Below are positions 4,586-14,356 of a stretch of DNA of 20,179 bases, piece after piece (position 1 is the stretch's first letter; each line of letters starts with the position of its first letter). The position numbers and the translations under genes are program-made. The notes below the pieces were generated by a model, which saw only the letters and a list, made by a program, of their open reading frames with translations, had not been told where the DNA came from and made no database searches. Source of the stretch: a virus; IMG/VR virus record IMGVR_UViG_3300035698_000783, positions 1 to 20,179 of that record; one strand, 5' to 3'.

Positions 4586-5553
4586 AGTCCTCTGAATATA
4601 TCATCAAGTGATTTTCTCTTACCGCCACCTGTTGTCTGCGCTGGTACATTGAGGTCTCTTAAGAAACGTTGTATATGTGTAGCACTAATATACTGCTCTC
4701 TCCTTGTCTTATCATCTAATGACCTATCATTTGCATCGGACATTGCATCATTGGCCATCACATTAAGACTAGATGCTAGTGACTCGATTTTAACTTGAGA
4801 CGACTCACCACCTCTCCATATGGATGTGTCTACAGGGTTTTCTTCTAGTAAACGTTTTATTTCAGCGACAGGCATCCTCGGATTAACCGATAATGACATA
4901 ACGAGTTGATTCTGAGACGTGGTGAGTGATTGTCTATCCTTCACTGTTTTCTTAACACTCTCTGGTATGGGTAGTGCCTGACCGAATGTATTAGCATATA
5001 GTTCACTAATGCCACCTTTAAAACCACCAACTTCACCTGCCTTGTCGTAAAGGTTAGCAGAAGGTTCTTGGGCAGGTAAACCTTGTTGTGGTGTACTACT
5101 AAACGCGCCTTGTTGTGGTGTAGCATTATTCCCACCAGGGTTGAATCTGTCTAACCCCATAATCTCATTCTGTAACTTATCAGATTGTAAGTTGTTTCTC
5201 CTTATACCAGAATTAGTCGATTGAATATCGGCAAGTCTACCTTGTCTATAAATATCAACATCATCGATCTCATTCTGTAACTTATCAGATTGTAAGTTGT
5301 TTCTCCTTATGCCAGAATTAGTCGATTGGATATCGGCAAGTCTACCTTGTCTATAAATATCAACATCATCGATCTCATTCTGCATCTTATCAGATTGTAA
5401 GTTGTTCTTTCTGATACTAGCTAGTGTACCTTGCCTGGCCAACTCATCATCTCTAAGCTTACCCTGGTTGGGACGACTAGTAAGGTATTTAAATAAGGAA
5501 TCATTGAATGATTTCCCGACTTTTGCCCAAGGGTCATAATATTCTCTACTCAT
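4582..5553 (-). CDS. Virion-associated hypothetical protein with tandem 35-aa repeats
   Basis: A 323-residue protein, overlapping its neighbours by 4 nt at each end, which suggests coupled translation within the ejection-protein group. Residues about 48-130 contain two complete 35-residue repeats (core NNLQSDKLQNEIDDVDIYRQ and RLADIQSTNSGIR) and part of a third. They are polar and predicted to form a coiled coil. The middle is Gln/Pro/Gly-rich (PQQG twice), and the C-terminal third is charged and helical. I recognise no enzymatic domain. By position it is a candidate internal virion or tail protein; the function is inferred only from context. Confidence 0.6.
   Translation of the reverse strand: MSREYYDPWAKVGKSFNDSLFKYLTSRPNQGKLRDDELARQGTLASIRKNNLQSDKMQNEIDDVDIYRQGRLADIQSTNSGIRRNNLQSDKLQNEIDDVDIYRQGRLADIQSTNSGIRRNNLQSDKLQNEIMGLDRFNPGGNNATPQQGAFSSTPQQGLPAQEPSANLYDKAGEVGGFKGGISELYANTFGQALPIPESVKKTVKDRQSLTTSQNQLVMSLSVNPRMPVAEIKRLLEENPVDTSIWRGGESSQVKIESLASSLNVMANDAMSDANDRSLDDKTRREQYISATHIQRFLRDLNVPAQTTGGGKRKSLDDIFRGL
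5166..5411 (-). repeat. 105-bp tandem repeat within the 323-aa gene
   Basis: Two full copies (5166-5270 and 5271-5375) differ at 2 of 105 positions by direct comparison, and both differences are synonymous. A diverged third copy covers about 5376-5411. The unit is 35 codons, so copy number can change without loss of frame. Confidence 0.95.
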
Positions 5554-7406: not shown

Positions 7407-9503
7407 TTATCCGTCCTCATATTTATTAGCGTAATGCATGGCGAGTGCAGAGAGCGTTGCCGCACCTGCTGTGGAGCAGGTCAATGTGATTCCGAATAAT
7501 GAGCCTAAACCCACTATTGCGTGTCTTGGTTTACCGTAGGTAGTACCCACAGCAACACCTTGTGATACACTCACTGTATCGTCAGCAGGGTTAGGTAGTA
7601 CAGACACCTGCCAATTATTAGTAGCAATTATATCAATACCGTTCAACTCCTTAAATGCTGCTGGAGCATTTGCTGAGATGTAAGGTAATTCTACCACAAC
7701 TGGTAGCACGTTGTCATCAGGATATTCGTCATTATCAGTTCCGCCGTATAAATACAACGCCTCATCACCATCATCATCTGTGGCACGTGCATATACTCTG
7801 TCACCAATACTAGCAAAATGCGTGATTGTTATGTCTAAATCGTAATATGACCATGCTGAAATCTTTTTAGAGGGGAAGAACGAAAATACATATATTCTTG
7901 TACCAACGGCAAGCCAATATCTACCGTCTATTGGTTCAATTATAGCAGTAGCTGCTGCTATCTGGGATTCCGTCAAAGTATTTAAATATTCCCTTACGTG
8001 GGCATCAATTGATGTACCAACATCTGATACATACGCCGAGTTGGATGAGTCTCTTGCTTTTACTGATCTTATGCCAGAAGAGGCAAGGTAGAATACATCA
8101 TTATTACCGTATGATATAACCGACCTTGGGGCAACTGTACCTGTGTTCTCTAGTGTCTGGAGGAAAACGTTGGCGGCAGAGTCTTCAGCTATTGACCATA
8201 TACGTATCTGTGAGGCGGAGAAGATTGCCATCAACCCTTGATACTCCGCTGCGGCTGTTAGTACTTCCTGACCAGCTGTCTGAGACGCCATATTGATAAA
8301 ACCATAGTCTATACCAGATACCCATTGTGTAGGTGCGTTAAGAGCACAGAAATATAAATTAGATGCTGCTGTAGAGTACATCTTAGACTTGAATGTTAAC
8401 GCCGTGGTACCTGTACCAGATGATCTACCTGTGACAATATATTCTTCAGTAGTATTGATTGTAACTTTGAATTGGTCAGCAGTCTCAAAAGTGCCACCCA
8501 CTGTTACCTGGAATACCTGGGCTACAGCAGAGACTGCTGTAACACCACCTGACATTGGTGAACCTGCTGTAGTTGTAACATCACCTGAGACGTTCACCAC
8601 TACAATAAATGCGTTCGGTGATGCGCCTGTACCGGCTAATGCTGTTATAGTAATTACAGGCCCATCAACTGAAACATCATACTCAGGTGTGGACGTGAAA
8701 GCGTCTAACTGTGTTTCTATTGCACTTGCGGTTACAGAGTTCGATGTAATCCAATCAACCGCAGCGTTCAATATATTGACACCATTTACTGTAATAGAAT
8801 CTACCTTGTTTACACCGGGGTTGGCTGTGCCCCCGGTTACGGTGATATCAGCAGTCGCTAATACCTCTGTAACGGCCTCTACATTAGCGACAGTCTCCAC
8901 AGCAACTAGTGTTTGATCATTTACTGAACCATTGTTTACCGCGCTTGTGCCGACGGTAAAAGATGTTCCTGCTGTAGCAGAAGTAATGGTCACAATATTA
9001 GTTGCTACAGATGTATCCACTGCTGCCGATTGTGTTATTGCCGATGATAACGCTGTAGCAATGGCATTATTACTACCTATCGTAGTTGATAATGTATCCC
9101 AGTCAGTGACTCTATCCGTATCATAGAAATGATACACTTCACCGTCACTATATTGTATCGCTGAATATAATAACCCGTCAAAAGGCTCACCGTCTAATAT
9201 GTCAGTTATTGCTGTGGCAGGGGTAGGGTGCTGTGTTAATAAATGAGTCACACCAGATGGTACGTTACCAGCCTCGCTAGCATCATAACCTACTGTATAC
9301 AGAGCATCGTTTATTGAGAACAATCCCCTGGTAGTAGAAGGGAAAGCGTCTACTAGTACAAAACTCTTACTTCGTTCAATGTCACCACCGCGTGTTAAAT
9401 GTGCATTCTTGAGCGTCCAGGCAGAACCTAGTTCCGCTACCACCCTGGAAGCCCGTGACCTGTCCATGCCTAACCTGAAATCCTGAATTTGGACATATGG
9501 CAT
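7407..9503 (-). CDS. Tail nozzle/hub protein with inserted beta domains
   Basis: A 698-residue protein placed after the neck adaptor, where podoviruses encode the tail tube nozzle or hub (P22 gp10- or T7 gp12-like). The N-terminus (MPYVQIQDFRLGMDRSRA) and the C-terminal half fit a propeller-like nozzle: short strands such as GRYWLAVGTRIYVFSFF and ISAWSYYDL around residues 520-560, then ALYLYGG and HAIVGLGSLFG. Residues about 137-325 are a Thr/Val/Ala/Ser-rich block of two similar modules with repeated VTITxxAGT strands, like insertions in other phage tail proteins. These may sit on the outside and bind receptor or neighbouring subunits. The start at 9503 overlaps the adaptor's stop by one base. 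Confidence 0.7.
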   Translation of the reverse strand: MPYVQIQDFRLGMDRSRASRVVAELGSAWTLKNAHLTRGGDIERSKSFVLVDAFPSTTRGLFSINDALYTVGYDASEAGNVPSGVTHLLTQHPTPATAITDILDGEPFDGLLYSAIQYSDGEVYHFYDTDRVTDWDTLSTTIGSNNAIATALSSAITQSAAVDTSVATNIVTITSATAGTSFTVGTSAVNNGSVNDQTLVAVETVANVEAVTEVLATADITVTGGTANPGVNKVDSITVNGVNILNAAVDWITSNSVTASAIETQLDAFTSTPEYDVSVDGPVITITALAGTGASPNAFIVVVNVSGDVTTTAGSPMSGGVTAVSAVAQVFQVTVGGTFETADQFKVTINTTEEYIVTGRSSGTGTTALTFKSKMYSTAASNLYFCALNAPTQWVSGIDYGFINMASQTAGQEVLTAAAEYQGLMAIFSASQIRIWSIAEDSAANVFLQTLENTGTVAPRSVISYGNNDVFYLASSGIRSVKARDSSNSAYVSDVGTSIDAHVREYLNTLTESQIAAATAIIEPIDGRYWLAVGTRIYVFSFFPSKKISAWSYYDLDITITHFASIGDRVYARATDDDGDEALYLYGGTDNDEYPDDNVLPVVVELPYISANAPAAFKELNGIDIIATNNWQVSVLPNPADDTVSVSQGVAVGTTYGKPRHAIVGLGSLFGITLTCSTAGAATLSALAMHYANKYEDG

Positions 9504-10210
9504 TAGCTACTCACCGTGATTGTTGTTCTGTAACCACTAGGGTATCTCAGTCTATTACCAATACCCATCTGTATTATGGGTGAACCTTTAGCCTCATTAC
9601 GTTTTAATGTAACTAATCTATTGTTTGCTTGTTCTAGCTTCGCTTGAGCGTCCTTTGCTCCCTGACGGGCTAGAATTTCCGCCGATGCATAAAGTATAAT
9701 CAAGCGATCATCAATATCAGCAGTGTCAGATTCCTGCACCAATGATGATAATGTCTTGGTTCCGATGAAGTACATGGATTGTGTTTCAGAAGCAGGTATC
9801 GGCCATACTTCGAGTTGTTCGACTGAGCCTGTATCACGTATATCCCATTTCTGTGTAGGGTCAGCTTGCGCAGGGGAGGTAGCATTACTATCGTAAGCAG
9901 AGTAATCACTCAGTTCTATACCACGTCTCATATCCTGGTATACACCATTTCTATACAGCTTCACCGTCTCAATACGATCAAAGTTTAACCCTGAAGGCAT
10001 TGTATAATACCTCTGACTAGCGGCTAGAGCAAGGGTCCTCTGTACCCTCATGTGCTGCCAGTCATTGTCGTCATACAGTTGTTCTTGGACACGTCTCAGT
10101 ATTTCTTTGAGGTTATCTAACTCATCAACACCTACCGCAACATTCTGGCTACGGCCAGTTTCAGCACGTAATTGCGCCACTAGTGCTAAAAGTTGTGTTC
10201 TTCGTGCCAT
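9503..10210 (-). CDS. Head-tail adaptor (neck) protein
   Basis: A 235-residue protein similar to the podovirus head-to-tail adaptor type (P22 gp4 / T7 gp11 role), which attaches below the portal ring. Seen: an N-terminal helical part (RTQLLALVAQLRAET, LDNLKEILRRVQEQLYDDNDW), a strand region (RYYTMPSGLNFDRIETVKLY, VEQLEVWPIPA), and a C-terminal helix with LIILYASAEILARQG. The order short helical protein, adaptor, nozzle fits. GGGGT lies upstream of the ATG at 10210. Confidence 0.75.
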   Translation of the reverse strand: MARRTQLLALVAQLRAETGRSQNVAVGVDELDNLKEILRRVQEQLYDDNDWQHMRVQRTLALAASQRYYTMPSGLNFDRIETVKLYRNGVYQDMRRGIELSDYSAYDSNATSPAQADPTQKWDIRDTGSVEQLEVWPIPASETQSMYFIGTKTLSSLVQESDTADIDDRLIILYASAEILARQGAKDAQAKLEQANNRLVTLKRNEAKGSPIIQMGIGNRLRYPSGYRTTITVSS

Positions 10211-10213
10211 CAG

Positions 10214-10618
10214 TTACCCCAATAAATCAGCTAGCCTCACCTCATCAGGAGACTTAATCGTCTCCATTCTTTGTAATTCAGCCTCTGTTCTAGCCTCGTA
10301 ACGGTTGTGTTTATTACCATCACCTTCGTCAATTCTGGTTATGTTCTCTATTTCTATCTCACCGTCAATGTTGAATCTCTCTAATGACTCTTCAGGTAAA
10401 CGGGAAGGTAGTGAACCAAGTGGCCCGAAAATAGCATCTACGTTCTGTTTCTTCCTCTTAAGGGCCTTGTCATAAATAGTTTTCAATCTACGTCTTTCTT
10501 GTGCGGCATTAACGTGATCATTCTTGATTTCTGCGACATTATGTATCGCGTCTTTACCGTGTATATACTGTAAAAGTAAGAACTCAGGTGCAGTAACAGT
10601 TTTTCGCACTTCGTTCAT
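10214..10618 (-). CDS. Hypothetical helical protein before the neck adaptor
   Basis: A 134-residue, strongly charged, helical protein with a basic central coiled coil (ERRRLKTIYDKALKRKKQN) and an acidic C-terminus. No family recognised. The frame is open to 10666, but I place the start at the ATG at 10618 (MNEVRKTVTAPEF) because the promoter proposed at 10641-10649 would start transcription near 10634, inside the longer version. If transcription instead reads through from upstream, ATG 10660 with AAGGG 8 nt before it would give 148 residues. It opens the neck/tail group and may be a small assembly or neck factor. Confidence 0.55.
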   Translation of the reverse strand: MNEVRKTVTAPEFLLLQYIHGKDAIHNVAEIKNDHVNAAQERRRLKTIYDKALKRKKQNVDAIFGPLGSLPSRLPEESLERFNIDGEIEIENITRIDEGDGNKHNRYEARTEAELQRMETIKSPDEVRLADLLG

Positions 10619-10624
10619 CGCAAA

Positions 10625-10649
10625 TCCGTTTAAACGGAGGATTATATCA
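10625..10649 (-). promoter_or_regulatory. Extended -10 promoter with 14-bp palindrome
   Basis: The minus strand reads TG-A-TATAAT (10649-10641), a perfect extended -10 element; the -35 region is poor, which an extended -10 can tolerate. The predicted start point (about 10634) lies in a perfect 14-bp palindrome TCCGTTTAAACGGA (10625-10638), a plausible operator. It follows the terminator at 10686-10722 and precedes the ATG at 10618. Confidence 0.55.
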
Positions 10650-10685
10650 TAAGAGTACATATACATTGCCCTTGTACTAAATTGT

Positions 10686-10722
10686 TAAAAATATACAGGC
10701 GGTGTGGCGAACACCACCTGTA
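10686..10722 (-). terminator. Intrinsic terminator after the head genes
   Basis: Reading leftward, a 12-bp GC-containing stem (10722-10711 with 10705-10694, one G-U pair) and a 5-nt loop are followed by TATATTTTT. This is a canonical rho-independent terminator for the leftward transcript, placed 12 nt after the stop of the 423-aa gene. No T-run follows on the other strand. Confidence 0.85.
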
Positions 10723-10734
10723 CGTATAATAATA

Positions 10735-12006
10735 TTAACCTGCGTACTGGTCAATACCTTTGTAAGTAGGATCAGTGGTCAATAATACCAATGACTCAGC
10801 AGTTGCACCGTCAGGTGTTGTTACCGGGGAATAAGTACCACGGACATCACCAGTTGTGGCAGTTGCTACAGCTGTTACACCTGCCACGAACGTACCAGCT
10901 AATGCGTTGGTAGGTTCAATCTCGACGTAACCACTAAGTGCTCCGGCAGTAGCGAACTCTGACGCTGGAATTATTTCCAACTCATCACCAACTACTACAG
11001 CAATTGACGCATGACCGGCAGTAGGTGTATCTGAATCAAGATCACCTGCTCCGCCACCGTCTGCGACAGTTACACTAAGCCCATCAACAGAAGTGTTATT
11101 AACCTTCATGGTAACAGCACCACCTGTTGTTACGGCTTTCCAAGCAATTGTTACTAGCTTACTTATACTACCAGCAACAGGGCAAGGCAGGCTGATTGGT
11201 GTACCGGCCAATAGATCAGTCTGGTCTATCTGGAAGGGTACACGTACCTTTCCACCTTGTGCAGTAGGGGCAGTGATTCTAACACCAGCCTCATACTCCG
11301 CAATGATCTGACCTGCGTCACCTACAAATATAGGTAGACCAAACACATCACCTGTACCAACAGTTAGGCTAGTTATATTAGTACTAACTGTAATATCAGT
11401 AACGGTCTTAAATGCCTTAGCCCCAGTGAATGATGTACCAGAAGCAGATGACTCAACAACCACGTTACCGTAATCGTCAGTACCTGTTAACGTAAGTACA
11501 GCAGTGGTGGTCCAAGCAGCAACAATGTTCCGTGGAACATCAGCAGTACCTGCTAACGCACCAGCAGCTATTGCAGCAGCTGCAGTAGCGCTCACTGAGA
11601 ACACACCAGCGGATGTCAAATCTTGAGATGCGCAGTAACCGTCAGCGTCTGCAGTATCACCTGAACCTATATCCATACGAATAACTTCACCGATAGATGA
11701 GTTGTTCACATCTTCAGATATACTGGTAACAGCGTCACCATCATCTGAACCCGCGATATTCGCCTGGATAGAAACTTCAGATCCAGAAGGTATTGCTGTA
11801 GAACCATTGTATGTAACAACAATGGACGCACCGAATGCTACAGTGAAGTTTGCAGGTTGTAGGTATAATTTCTGGTGTTTATCAACCCATAATTTATGCC
11901 CATAATCCGCGAAGTTACCTGCACTAGTGTTGTCAGGGTATGAGAAGGTAACAGTTGCGCCTGACGCGACTGCTGAACCTAGAGTAGTTGTAGAAATTTT
12001 AAACAT
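10735..12006 (-). CDS. Head decoration/structural protein
   Basis: A 423-residue, Gly/Ala/Thr/Val-rich beta protein immediately after the major capsid gene. I recognise parts shared with abundant phage structural proteins. The N-terminal part has strands around TTLGSAVASGATVTFSYPD. The centre has TGTDDYGN and GAKAFKTVTDITV. A module from FQIDQTDLLAG to ALSGYVEIEP follows, and near the C-terminus is TTGDVRGTYSPVTTPDGA. Position and composition suggest a capsid-surface or head-completion protein, possibly an assembly of stacked modules. The start has AAGGAGA 7 nt upstream, a strong ribosome site consistent with high expression. A good terminator follows. Enzymatic function not expected. Confidence 0.65.
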   Translation of the reverse strand: MFKISTTTLGSAVASGATVTFSYPDNTSAGNFADYGHKLWVDKHQKLYLQPANFTVAFGASIVVTYNGSTAIPSGSEVSIQANIAGSDDGDAVTSISEDVNNSSIGEVIRMDIGSGDTADADGYCASQDLTSAGVFSVSATAAAAIAAGALAGTADVPRNIVAAWTTTAVLTLTGTDDYGNVVVESSASGTSFTGAKAFKTVTDITVSTNITSLTVGTGDVFGLPIFVGDAGQIIAEYEAGVRITAPTAQGGKVRVPFQIDQTDLLAGTPISLPCPVAGSISKLVTIAWKAVTTGGAVTMKVNNTSVDGLSVTVADGGGAGDLDSDTPTAGHASIAVVVGDELEIIPASEFATAGALSGYVEIEPTNALAGTFVAGVTAVATATTGDVRGTYSPVTTPDGATAESLVLLTTDPTYKGIDQYAG

Positions 12007-12050: not shown

Positions 12051-13094
12051 TTAAGCGATAGTGAATACACCACTTGTGTTACGTTGTCTGCAAACCAAAC
12101 CAAGTACATCAGTTACCGCACGGTAAAGAACATATTTAGAAGCTGGTCTTGCTGGTGAATGTTTCTTAGACTTCTCACCTTCCATATACATAGGGTAGAT
12201 ACAGTTGGTGTCGATGGCGTAGAAATATTTAGCCTCACCTTCATCATCCAGTGTTGGGTCATAAGTGATCGTCAACCCTTTGAATGATGCATCAGCCATA
12301 CTGAAGTCGATACTACCTTTACCTGCCCATCCGTTTTGAGTATAAGTACCATTAATGCGCATTTCCTTCTCTATTGCGTCCAGGAAGTCTGAACCAGCAA
12401 AGAATTTATGTTTAGGGTTACCGTATCTCATCAACTGACGCATGCCTGTTTGAACAGCTGTAGCAATCGTCGAGCTAGCAGGGGAAGCGGTTGATATAGC
12501 CAATGATGCGTAATTTCTCCACCATGTGTTAGAGGACTGATCAATACCGCCTATAGTTAATGCAGATGTAGGGTCAGGTAGAATGAAAGACTTAACACCA
12601 GAGATCAGAGACGAATCAGCAGAACCGTCACGCCAGAACATATTATTGAATCCGCGTGAACGACCTTCCATCATACTCTCAAGTTTATCATCAAGCAGGT
12701 TAGCAAGCTGGATTTCTTCAGAGGCGCTATGGTTAGACTCACCACTACCTGTAACAGTCTCATTAATAGATATACCGTTACGTTGTAGCTCATCATAGGT
12801 AACTTTAATACCCTTATGTACACGTTTGTACTGGTATGTAGCCATTTTAATGTCGGCAGGGTTGCTGTAATCAACCTCATCATCACCTTCCCATCCTTCT
12901 ATCTCGTCATCATATTCACCTTTCACGCGAACTGTAAGGTAATCCTTACCGCCTGGGAAAGTCTTATTGATGCCACTGAAGGCTTGCAAAAGTGGTTTGT
13001 TTTGAATGGTCTGGGAGAATATTTTCCCCTTGTCCATATGGAAATCTATAGTAGCATTAGCAATATTCTCTAATTCTTGTAGTGTGAAACTCAT
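12051..13094 (-). CDS. Major capsid protein
   Basis: A 347-residue protein directly after the scaffold gene, the standard position for the coat protein. The N-terminus is helical (LQELENIANATIDFHMDKGKIF), followed by DYLTVRVKGEYDDEIEGWEGD with alternating acidic and aromatic residues, as in an HK97-type E-loop region. Later come a long helical part (ASEEIQLANLLDDKLESMMEGR) and C-terminal strands (YVLYRAVTDVLGLVCRQRN). Length is typical for short podovirus coat proteins. The ribosome site GGAGA lies 8 nt before the ATG at 13094. The HK97 fold is inferred from context rather than from a diagnostic motif. Confidence 0.85.
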   Translation of the reverse strand: MSFTLQELENIANATIDFHMDKGKIFSQTIQNKPLLQAFSGINKTFPGGKDYLTVRVKGEYDDEIEGWEGDDEVDYSNPADIKMATYQYKRVHKGIKVTYDELQRNGISINETVTGSGESNHSASEEIQLANLLDDKLESMMEGRSRGFNNMFWRDGSADSSLISGVKSFILPDPTSALTIGGIDQSSNTWWRNYASLAISTASPASSTIATAVQTGMRQLMRYGNPKHKFFAGSDFLDAIEKEMRINGTYTQNGWAGKGSIDFSMADASFKGLTITYDPTLDDEGEAKYFYAIDTNCIYPMYMEGEKSKKHSPARPASKYVLYRAVTDVLGLVCRQRNTSGVFTIA

Positions 13095-13125: not shown

Positions 13126-14208
13126 TTAACTCCCACGACTATGACGAATTATATCTAACGTAGATTGCGGCTCAAGTTTAGAATTAGGTGAATTACCGCC
13201 ACTGTTAATGGTGACAACAGGCTTCTTCTGGATAAACTGACGCATTTCTCTTTCGACGTCACGTTTAACCCTTTCAGCAATTTGTGTTGCTTCCCCAACA
13301 GACCTTGGCATCCGATTATTCTGACTCATCTCTAACCATGTTAGTTTCATTCTATCACGTACACGTGAAGTCTTTAATTTATAATCAATGTCAGATTTTC
13401 CCCACTGATTTTCAAGGTCACCTAATGCGACCTGAATATCTGTAGTTAATTTCAAATGATTGTCCTGAAGGGCCTGTTGTTGACGCTGCTGTTGGGTCTG
13501 TTGTCTCACATCATTTTGCTTGATAACAGCCCTCTGACGGGATAACTCGAACGCATGATCGTCCTTAATATACCCATCTTTCACCTGAGCTTCGAGGTCA
13601 GGTGGTAATACTTCACCAGTACTCTTTAATAAGTTATTATAATAAGGGGTTAACATCGCCAGTGCTTTAACTGGGTCATTCTTCATTAACGCACCAATAT
13701 CAAATAATGTATTGGCCTCATCAGTACTAATACTATTAGTACTACAGAAGTCATCGTACTGACGCTTAAAACCAGCATCGGCTTCAAACTCTTCTACTTT
13801 GGTTTTCAGTGTAACAATTTCTTGTTTCTTCTGAAAATCACGTTTTTGGAGTTTTTCAAACCTATCACGAGTTTCGGCTTTCACTTGTTTCTTCCAAGCA
13901 GCAAGCTCCTCCTCAGTCTCTTCAGTGTCATCATCCTCAATGTCAGATTTACCTTCCGGTTCATCCTCAACTACGGCTGAATCTTCCCCCTGATTAGTAT
14001 CAGGTTCACCTTTATCTACACTCTCAGACTTAATCGCCTCTCTTACAAGGTCAAGCGTCGTGCGAGTATCGACTTCCGGTTGCTCTGAAACGGACGAATC
14101 TCCAGAAGTGGTTTCACTGTCCTGATCTATTGAAGCGGACGAATCCTCAGTGTTCTGGTCCAAGTGGTCAGCATCGTTGGATGGCGAATCCAACTTGTCT
14201 TTCGACAT
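13126..14208 (-). CDS. Capsid scaffolding protein
   Basis: A 360-residue, highly charged protein between portal and capsid genes, the usual place for the scaffold that templates procapsid assembly. The N-terminal third is very acidic (Asp/Glu/Ser runs such as EDDDTEETEEEL). The middle is basic and helical, with a Gln-rich segment (QQTQQQRQQQ). The C-terminal third is helical and basic (RVKRDVEREMRQFIQKK), as expected of a coat-binding end. The start is set at the ATG at 14208 because GGAGG lies 5 nt upstream; the ATG at 14220 has no ribosome site and lies upstream of that GGAGG. A promoter-like sequence precedes the gene. Confidence 0.85.
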   Translation of the reverse strand: MSKDKLDSPSNDADHLDQNTEDSSASIDQDSETTSGDSSVSEQPEVDTRTTLDLVREAIKSESVDKGEPDTNQGEDSAVVEDEPEGKSDIEDDDTEETEEELAAWKKQVKAETRDRFEKLQKRDFQKKQEIVTLKTKVEEFEADAGFKRQYDDFCSTNSISTDEANTLFDIGALMKNDPVKALAMLTPYYNNLLKSTGEVLPPDLEAQVKDGYIKDDHAFELSRQRAVIKQNDVRQQTQQQRQQQALQDNHLKLTTDIQVALGDLENQWGKSDIDYKLKTSRVRDRMKLTWLEMSQNNRMPRSVGEATQIAERVKRDVEREMRQFIQKKPVVTINSGGNSPNSKLEPQSTLDIIRHSRGS

Positions 14209-14302
14209 AACGGCCTCCATCTAAGGGTTTGCACGTTTCACAACGTTCAATTTGCACTATATTCTATTAGTATCGTTCACTTATATAAATAGTACAACTA
14301 AA

Positions 14303-14331
14303 ACTATGACAAAATGTGGTGTACAAGTCAA
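14303..14331 (-). promoter_or_regulatory. Possible promoter for scaffold and capsid
   Basis: In the 150-nt gap between portal and scaffold, the minus strand reads TTGACT, 17 nt, CATAGT. The match is fair (5/6 and 4/6). It would add transcription for scaffold and capsid, which are needed in larger amounts than portal. The leader also has TTTGCAC (+ strand) twice, at 14226-14232 and 14251-14257. Confidence 0.4.
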
Positions 14332-14338
14332 CAATAAA

Positions 14339-14354
14339 AACAATATATATTGTT
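14339..14354. promoter_or_regulatory. 16-bp AT-rich perfect palindrome after the portal gene
   Basis: AACAATATATATTGTT is perfectly self-complementary, 2 nt past the portal stop. On the minus strand the stem is followed by TTTATT, so a weak terminator is possible, as is an operator for the promoter just downstream. It contains no G-C pairs apart from one near each end, so terminator strength would be low. Confidence 0.4.
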
Positions 14355-14356
14355 AT

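Follow-up and report, generated by a model that had tools for sequence, protein, structure and literature searches.

A phage virion is built from hundreds of capsid copies and about a dozen or fewer copies of each tail part, and one gene cluster serves both. The locus studied here lies between the head and the tail genes of such a cluster. The window, that is, the whole stretch of DNA analysed, is a 20,179-base fragment of a short-tailed phage (IMG/VR virus record IMGVR_UViG_3300035698_000783). A first-pass annotation had proposed that a strong terminator after the head genes is followed by an extended -10 promoter with a perfect palindrome over its expected start, which would separate head from tail transcription and might control stoichiometry. 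These proposals were examined in the window and in its relatives.

Results

The substantial genes of the window all have the same orientation, on the minus strand. They comprise a lysozyme gene, overlapping frames of spanin type, the genes for large terminase, portal, scaffold, coat and Ig-like protein, a gene for a 148-aa protein, a tail adaptor gene of the SU10 type, and genes for a large tail protein and for internal virion proteins (Table 1). No family match was found for the Ig-like protein. Residue 3 of the long open reading frame is where every homologue of the 148-aa gene starts, which places the start of the gene at the ATG listed in Table 1, with AAGGG eight bases upstream. Searched alone against viral contigs, the 150-aa frame gave no match. 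An alignment of the coat protein did find relatives, and the annotated phages RHph_N65 and Mae-Yong1326-1 together with about 50 virus contigs were used; no coat relatives were found in bacterial genomes.

Table 1. Features of the window around the head/tail boundary and the head genes
Feature	Position	Strand	Remarks
Tail adaptor, SU10 adaptor family	9503-10210	-	PF24175, E 1.6e-10; first recognisable tail gene
148-aa gene, first gene 3' of the boundary hairpin	10214-10660	-	start ATG 10660; AAGGG at 10669-10673
14-bp palindrome TCCGTTTAAACGGA	10625-10638		coding, Leu-Arg-Leu-Asn-Gly; chance
Extended -10 TGATATAAT of the first-pass annotation	10641-10649	-	coding, Asp-Ile-Ile; probably not a promoter
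U-tract TTTTT (ATTTTTAACA)	10687-10691	-	3' of the boundary hairpin
Boundary hairpin	10693-10723	-	13-bp stem, pentaloop TCGCC (10706-10710); conserved and covarying in relatives
Last head gene, 423-aa Ig-like/decoration-type protein	10735-12006	-	putative, from position and composition
Major coat protein	12051-13094	-	PHROG 9953 major head protein, E 1.5e-48
Scaffold protein	13126-14220	-	assigned by position between portal and coat
Leader hairpin ACGTT-GTGA-AACGT	14233-14246	-	upstream of scaffold
Sigma70-like promoter TTGACT-N17-CATAGT	14303-14331	-	promoter of the head cassette; conserved

Several other features were observed elsewhere in the window. A 105-bp tandem repeat (5162-5406; 2.3 copies, 97%) lies in frame within a structural gene and corresponds to 35 aa. 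Tandem repeats of 27 bp (1-468 and 658-824), coding for AASSG-type repeats, were located within an open frame at the window edge. A low-complexity frame rich in Ser, Ala and Tyr occupies 594-1277. The gap at 1278-1582 holds a perfect inverted repeat, AATTCCTACACTTCCTTTTTACTTAAAGCC (about 1309-1385), with arms of about 30 bp forming a large hairpin. A predicted 60-aa DNA-binding protein of MerR/HTH_17 type, with a relative in contig L009, is encoded at 1583-1765. Ahead of this gene stands TTGACA-18-TACAAT (1828-1799), which matches a promoter better than any other site of the window.

The hairpin at the end of the head genes is real. Its sequence is GTACAGGTGGTGT-TCGCC-ACACCGCCTGTAT, then ATTTTTAACA, and it starts 11 nt past the stop codon of the Ig-like gene. 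With a loop of 5 and an energy of -20.0 kcal/mol, it exceeds every other hairpin on the minus strand of the window in stability. Terminator-like matches in the window numbered 15, a total at chance level (12.6 +/- 4.1 in shuffles); the boundary hairpin has 13 pairs and the other 14 have at most 7. It shows the composition of an intrinsic terminator, a G+C-rich hairpin of at least 5 bp with a short loop and a U-rich tract (ATTTTT) directly 3' of the stem, and it is placed like Tphi of phage T7, with the last head gene on one side and the first tail-side gene on the other. The window did not reach the gathering score of any family in Rfam 15. The terminator placed after the head genes by the first-pass annotation was borne out as a predicted one.

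The hairpin is conserved together with its position. In every relative with a readable junction, 56-117 nt separate the last head gene from the gene that follows. With one or two exceptions among 47 relatives (the distant L005 being left out of the count), the hairpin was found in this gap, and RHph_N65 and Mae-Yong1326-1 have it as well. It was interrupted in L037. In most relatives the hairpin starts 7-16 nt past the last head gene's stop codon. In those without the Ig-like gene (e.g. L032, L034, L039-L049, L051 and L052), it follows the coat gene. The 40 distinct hairpins have 9-16 pairs each and rank first in stability within their own locus in nearly all loci. The median folding z-score of the gap was -3.15 compared with -0.27 in control windows of the same loci, and 53% of the gaps reached -3 compared with 3% of the control windows; the folding energy was not significant in L028 (z = -0.35) and L038 (z = -1.07). 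In RHph_N65, the gap between coat and the next gene holds a second hairpin besides the boundary hairpin (L057:1106-1171).

Nearly every letter of the stem has changed among the relatives and the hairpin was kept. Among the 17 distinct members with a pentaloop, all 170 cells were paired and double changes occurred in 9 of 10 pairs, a pairing that is partly built in since each row was the best hairpin of its gap. Double-changed cells amounted to 52 compared with 11.5 in shuffles; the covariation score was reached by none of 500 shuffles and was lost when the partners were slid. The tests of position, rank and z-score are free of the bias from row choice and thus give the hairpin independent support.

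Upstream, the sigma70-like promoter sits in the gap between portal and scaffold. L002 and L006 show the same arrangement, and a set of near relatives shares a strongly conserved form, TTGACTTNNATGTCGGGGTTTGAGATA. In L014 and L016, the promoter stays beside scaffold although other sequence precedes it. The leader hairpin between promoter and scaffold gave 10 double-changed cells compared with 3.0 in shuffles, on only three of its five pairs. A conserved promoter thus precedes scaffold, whereas none is conserved after the boundary hairpin. The promoter upstream and the hairpin downstream together delimit a cassette of promoter, scaffold, coat, Ig-like gene and hairpin. In distant relatives, portal and scaffold are only 4-18 nt apart, which indicates that these relatives lack such a promoter; they still keep the boundary hairpin, which is therefore independent of a dedicated promoter.

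The spacer of the scaffold promoter showed a further pattern in some genomes. The 11-mer TGTCGGGGTTT occurs in 8, 5 and 4 copies in the genomes of L020, L022 and L024 (G001, G002 and G003; e.g. L070:13387, minus strand), with 0.02 expected per 45 kb. One copy per genome lies between the -35 and -10 of the scaffold promoter, and an inverted pair appears once, in the L022 genome. The set may represent dispersed operator or stoperator-like sites. The spacer in the window differs from those bearing TGTCGGGGTTT, and no repeat of it was found within the window that would make it a repeated operator.

The restart of transcription behind the terminator did not hold up. The 148-aa gene begins with the codons ATG TAC TCT TAT GAT ATA ATC CTC CGT TTA AAC GGA; both sites, placed upstream of the gene by the first-pass annotation, lie inside codons because the homologues put the start at this ATG, and TATAAT falls within the Asp-Ile-Ile codons. 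The extended -10 is present, but TGNTATAAT is found at a chance frequency (4 in the window compared with 1.48 per shuffled window), and the hexamers found at the distance of a -35 share only about one of six positions with TTGACA. At the 47 junctions, TGNTATAAT was found in the window only and in no relative, and only 8 of the 47 contained any promoter site of at least 9/12; the extended -10 was rejected as a probable promoter. Another promoter-like site (TTGACC-17-TATTAT, 10754-10726) was discarded likewise, no comparable site being found there in relatives. The palindrome was rejected as an operator: 14-bp palindromes occur in a chance number (two in the window compared with 1.48 per shuffled window, the second one unrelated), it is coding, and it was found at no junction of the relatives. 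L002 encodes the same LRLNG by TTA AGA TTA AAC GGT, with no palindrome. The second palindrome of the window, ACAATATATATTGT (14340-14353, within the region 14221-14356), is likewise at chance level.

Discussion

Our analysis indicates that the hairpin probably forms the 3' boundary of a head-gene mRNA, acting as a leaky terminator, as a barrier to 3' exonucleases or as both, by which capsid protein would be made in excess over tail protein. From the hairpin, its position, its covariation and its optional U-tract we infer partial termination, protection from exonucleases and an effect on the protein ratio. The polymerase would start at the conserved promoter ahead of scaffold, or read in from further upstream, and the genes for scaffold, coat and Ig-like protein would be transcribed as a head-gene message inside the late cluster. 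A fraction of the transcripts may stop at the hairpin, which in the window has the layout of an intrinsic terminator, and read-through transcripts would supply the tail and ejection genes. Either way, the hairpin would block 3'-to-5' exonucleases, and the head part of the message would outlive the tail part. The outcome would be hundreds of coat copies against few tail copies from a single cluster. Of the head/tail separation and stoichiometric control suggested by the first-pass annotation, a boundary element stands, with a probable role in stoichiometry, and a restart by a palindrome-controlled promoter does not.

Terminators at the capsid/tail boundary are already known from T7, phiKMV, LUZ24, LUZ100 and phage L, and the putative one of the window joins them; in the literature, no direct description of a conserved hairpin at this boundary was found. 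In T7, expression of genes 11 and 12 depends entirely on read-through of Tphi (PMC5592923). Like the hairpin in the window, Tphi (between genes 10 and 11) lies between the capsid gene and the first tail gene, with the tail genes behind. However, Tphi works on the RNA polymerase that T7 itself encodes, and the two sequences are unrelated. The T7-type RNA polymerase (PF00940), which was found in the positive controls T7, SP6 and phiKMV, was absent from the records of 11 relatives, the genome of the window itself being represented by a fragment only. A terminator for a phage-encoded single-subunit RNA polymerase, as Tphi itself is, was therefore set aside, and transcription by the host polymerase is likely.

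The long-read RNA sequencing map of LUZ100 showed an apparent strong terminator right behind the capsid gene (PMC10134795). The post-capsid terminators of LUZ24, LUZ100 and phiKMV (annotated in LUZ24 and phiKMV) agree with the hairpin of the window in place and layout but are unrelated in sequence. UUCG loops are found in the LUZ24 hairpin and in the first one of phiKMV, in place of the TCGCC of the window. Clear hairpins were also seen at this boundary in SP6, P-SSP7 and ST64T. No hairpin was found there in HTVC010P, indicating that it is not obligatory for podophages. In phage L, an intra-operon terminator stands where the procapsid module ends, and the authors of that work described the roles of such terminators as not known (PMC8022706). 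The terminator of the P22-like phages L and ST64T stands, like that of the window, after the coat gene within one late operon. However, the ST64T hairpin is short, has a UUCG loop and lies directly behind coat, and the P22-like late operon has a single promoter whereas the window has a conserved promoter ahead of scaffold.

The hairpin could possibly be a classical leaky intrinsic terminator that lowers downstream transcription and has no role in RNA stability. T7 and LUZ100 provide precedents, and a stem plus a U-run of 4-8 was found in the window, L002, L006, L015, L019, L021 and others. However, a U-run of at least 4 follows the stem in only 12 of the 40 distinct hairpins (window included) and is absent from 28, so that termination cannot be the sole shared function. 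Furthermore, in L020, L024, L028 and L029, hairpins elsewhere in the same genome are followed by five to eight T and thus have better U-tracts. The converse, a protector of the mRNA 3' end that acts as a decay barrier with no real termination, is conceivable though rather doubtful. At the level of the family, the hairpin is stable and conserved with a dispensable U-tract, as expected of a protective hairpin; distant relatives keep it without the U-tract, and a leader hairpin marks the cassette's other end. Stable hairpins that lie inside E. coli operons and have no U-tract stabilise the upstream message segment (PMC5927463). Protective hairpins of the malE-malF/puf type are, like that of the window, stable, situated between genes of unequal need and independent of a U-tract, though they belong to bacterial operons (PMC5927463). 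The U-tract in the window itself is terminator-like, which speaks against protection alone. Given the optional U-tract and the E. coli precedent, we propose a message boundary in which leaky termination and protection are combined in the window.

The loop raises another, unlikely explanation, in which a phage or host protein recognises TCGYC in the RNA and modulates termination, decay or the translation of the gene that follows. Among near-clade members, the pentaloop columns are 95.6% identical compared with 48.8% in the stem columns, the long G+C-rich pentaloop hairpin occurs once per locus, at the head/tail junction, and the core TCGCC is retained even in enlarged loops (L017 and L022). However, the hairpins of distant relatives have UUCG-type and other loops, which suggests that folding stability is enough. 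It is similarly improbable that the head genes form an RNA cassette with both ends marked, by a GNGA-loop leader hairpin after the dedicated promoter and by the TCGYC hairpin at the end, whose loop would be recognised by a dedicated protein of phage or host origin that adjusts the message flow into the tail genes during infection. That a terminator precedes a palindrome-controlled promoter from which tail transcription starts is very hard to credit: the extended -10 and the perfect 14-bp palindrome do exist, but at chance frequency, within conserved codons, with no -35 and not in relatives.

With a message boundary as the preferred reading, the value of this phage family lies in its diversity: the hairpin is kept, the stem is rewritten and the U-tract varies, so that its natural variants offer a way to separate termination from message protection.
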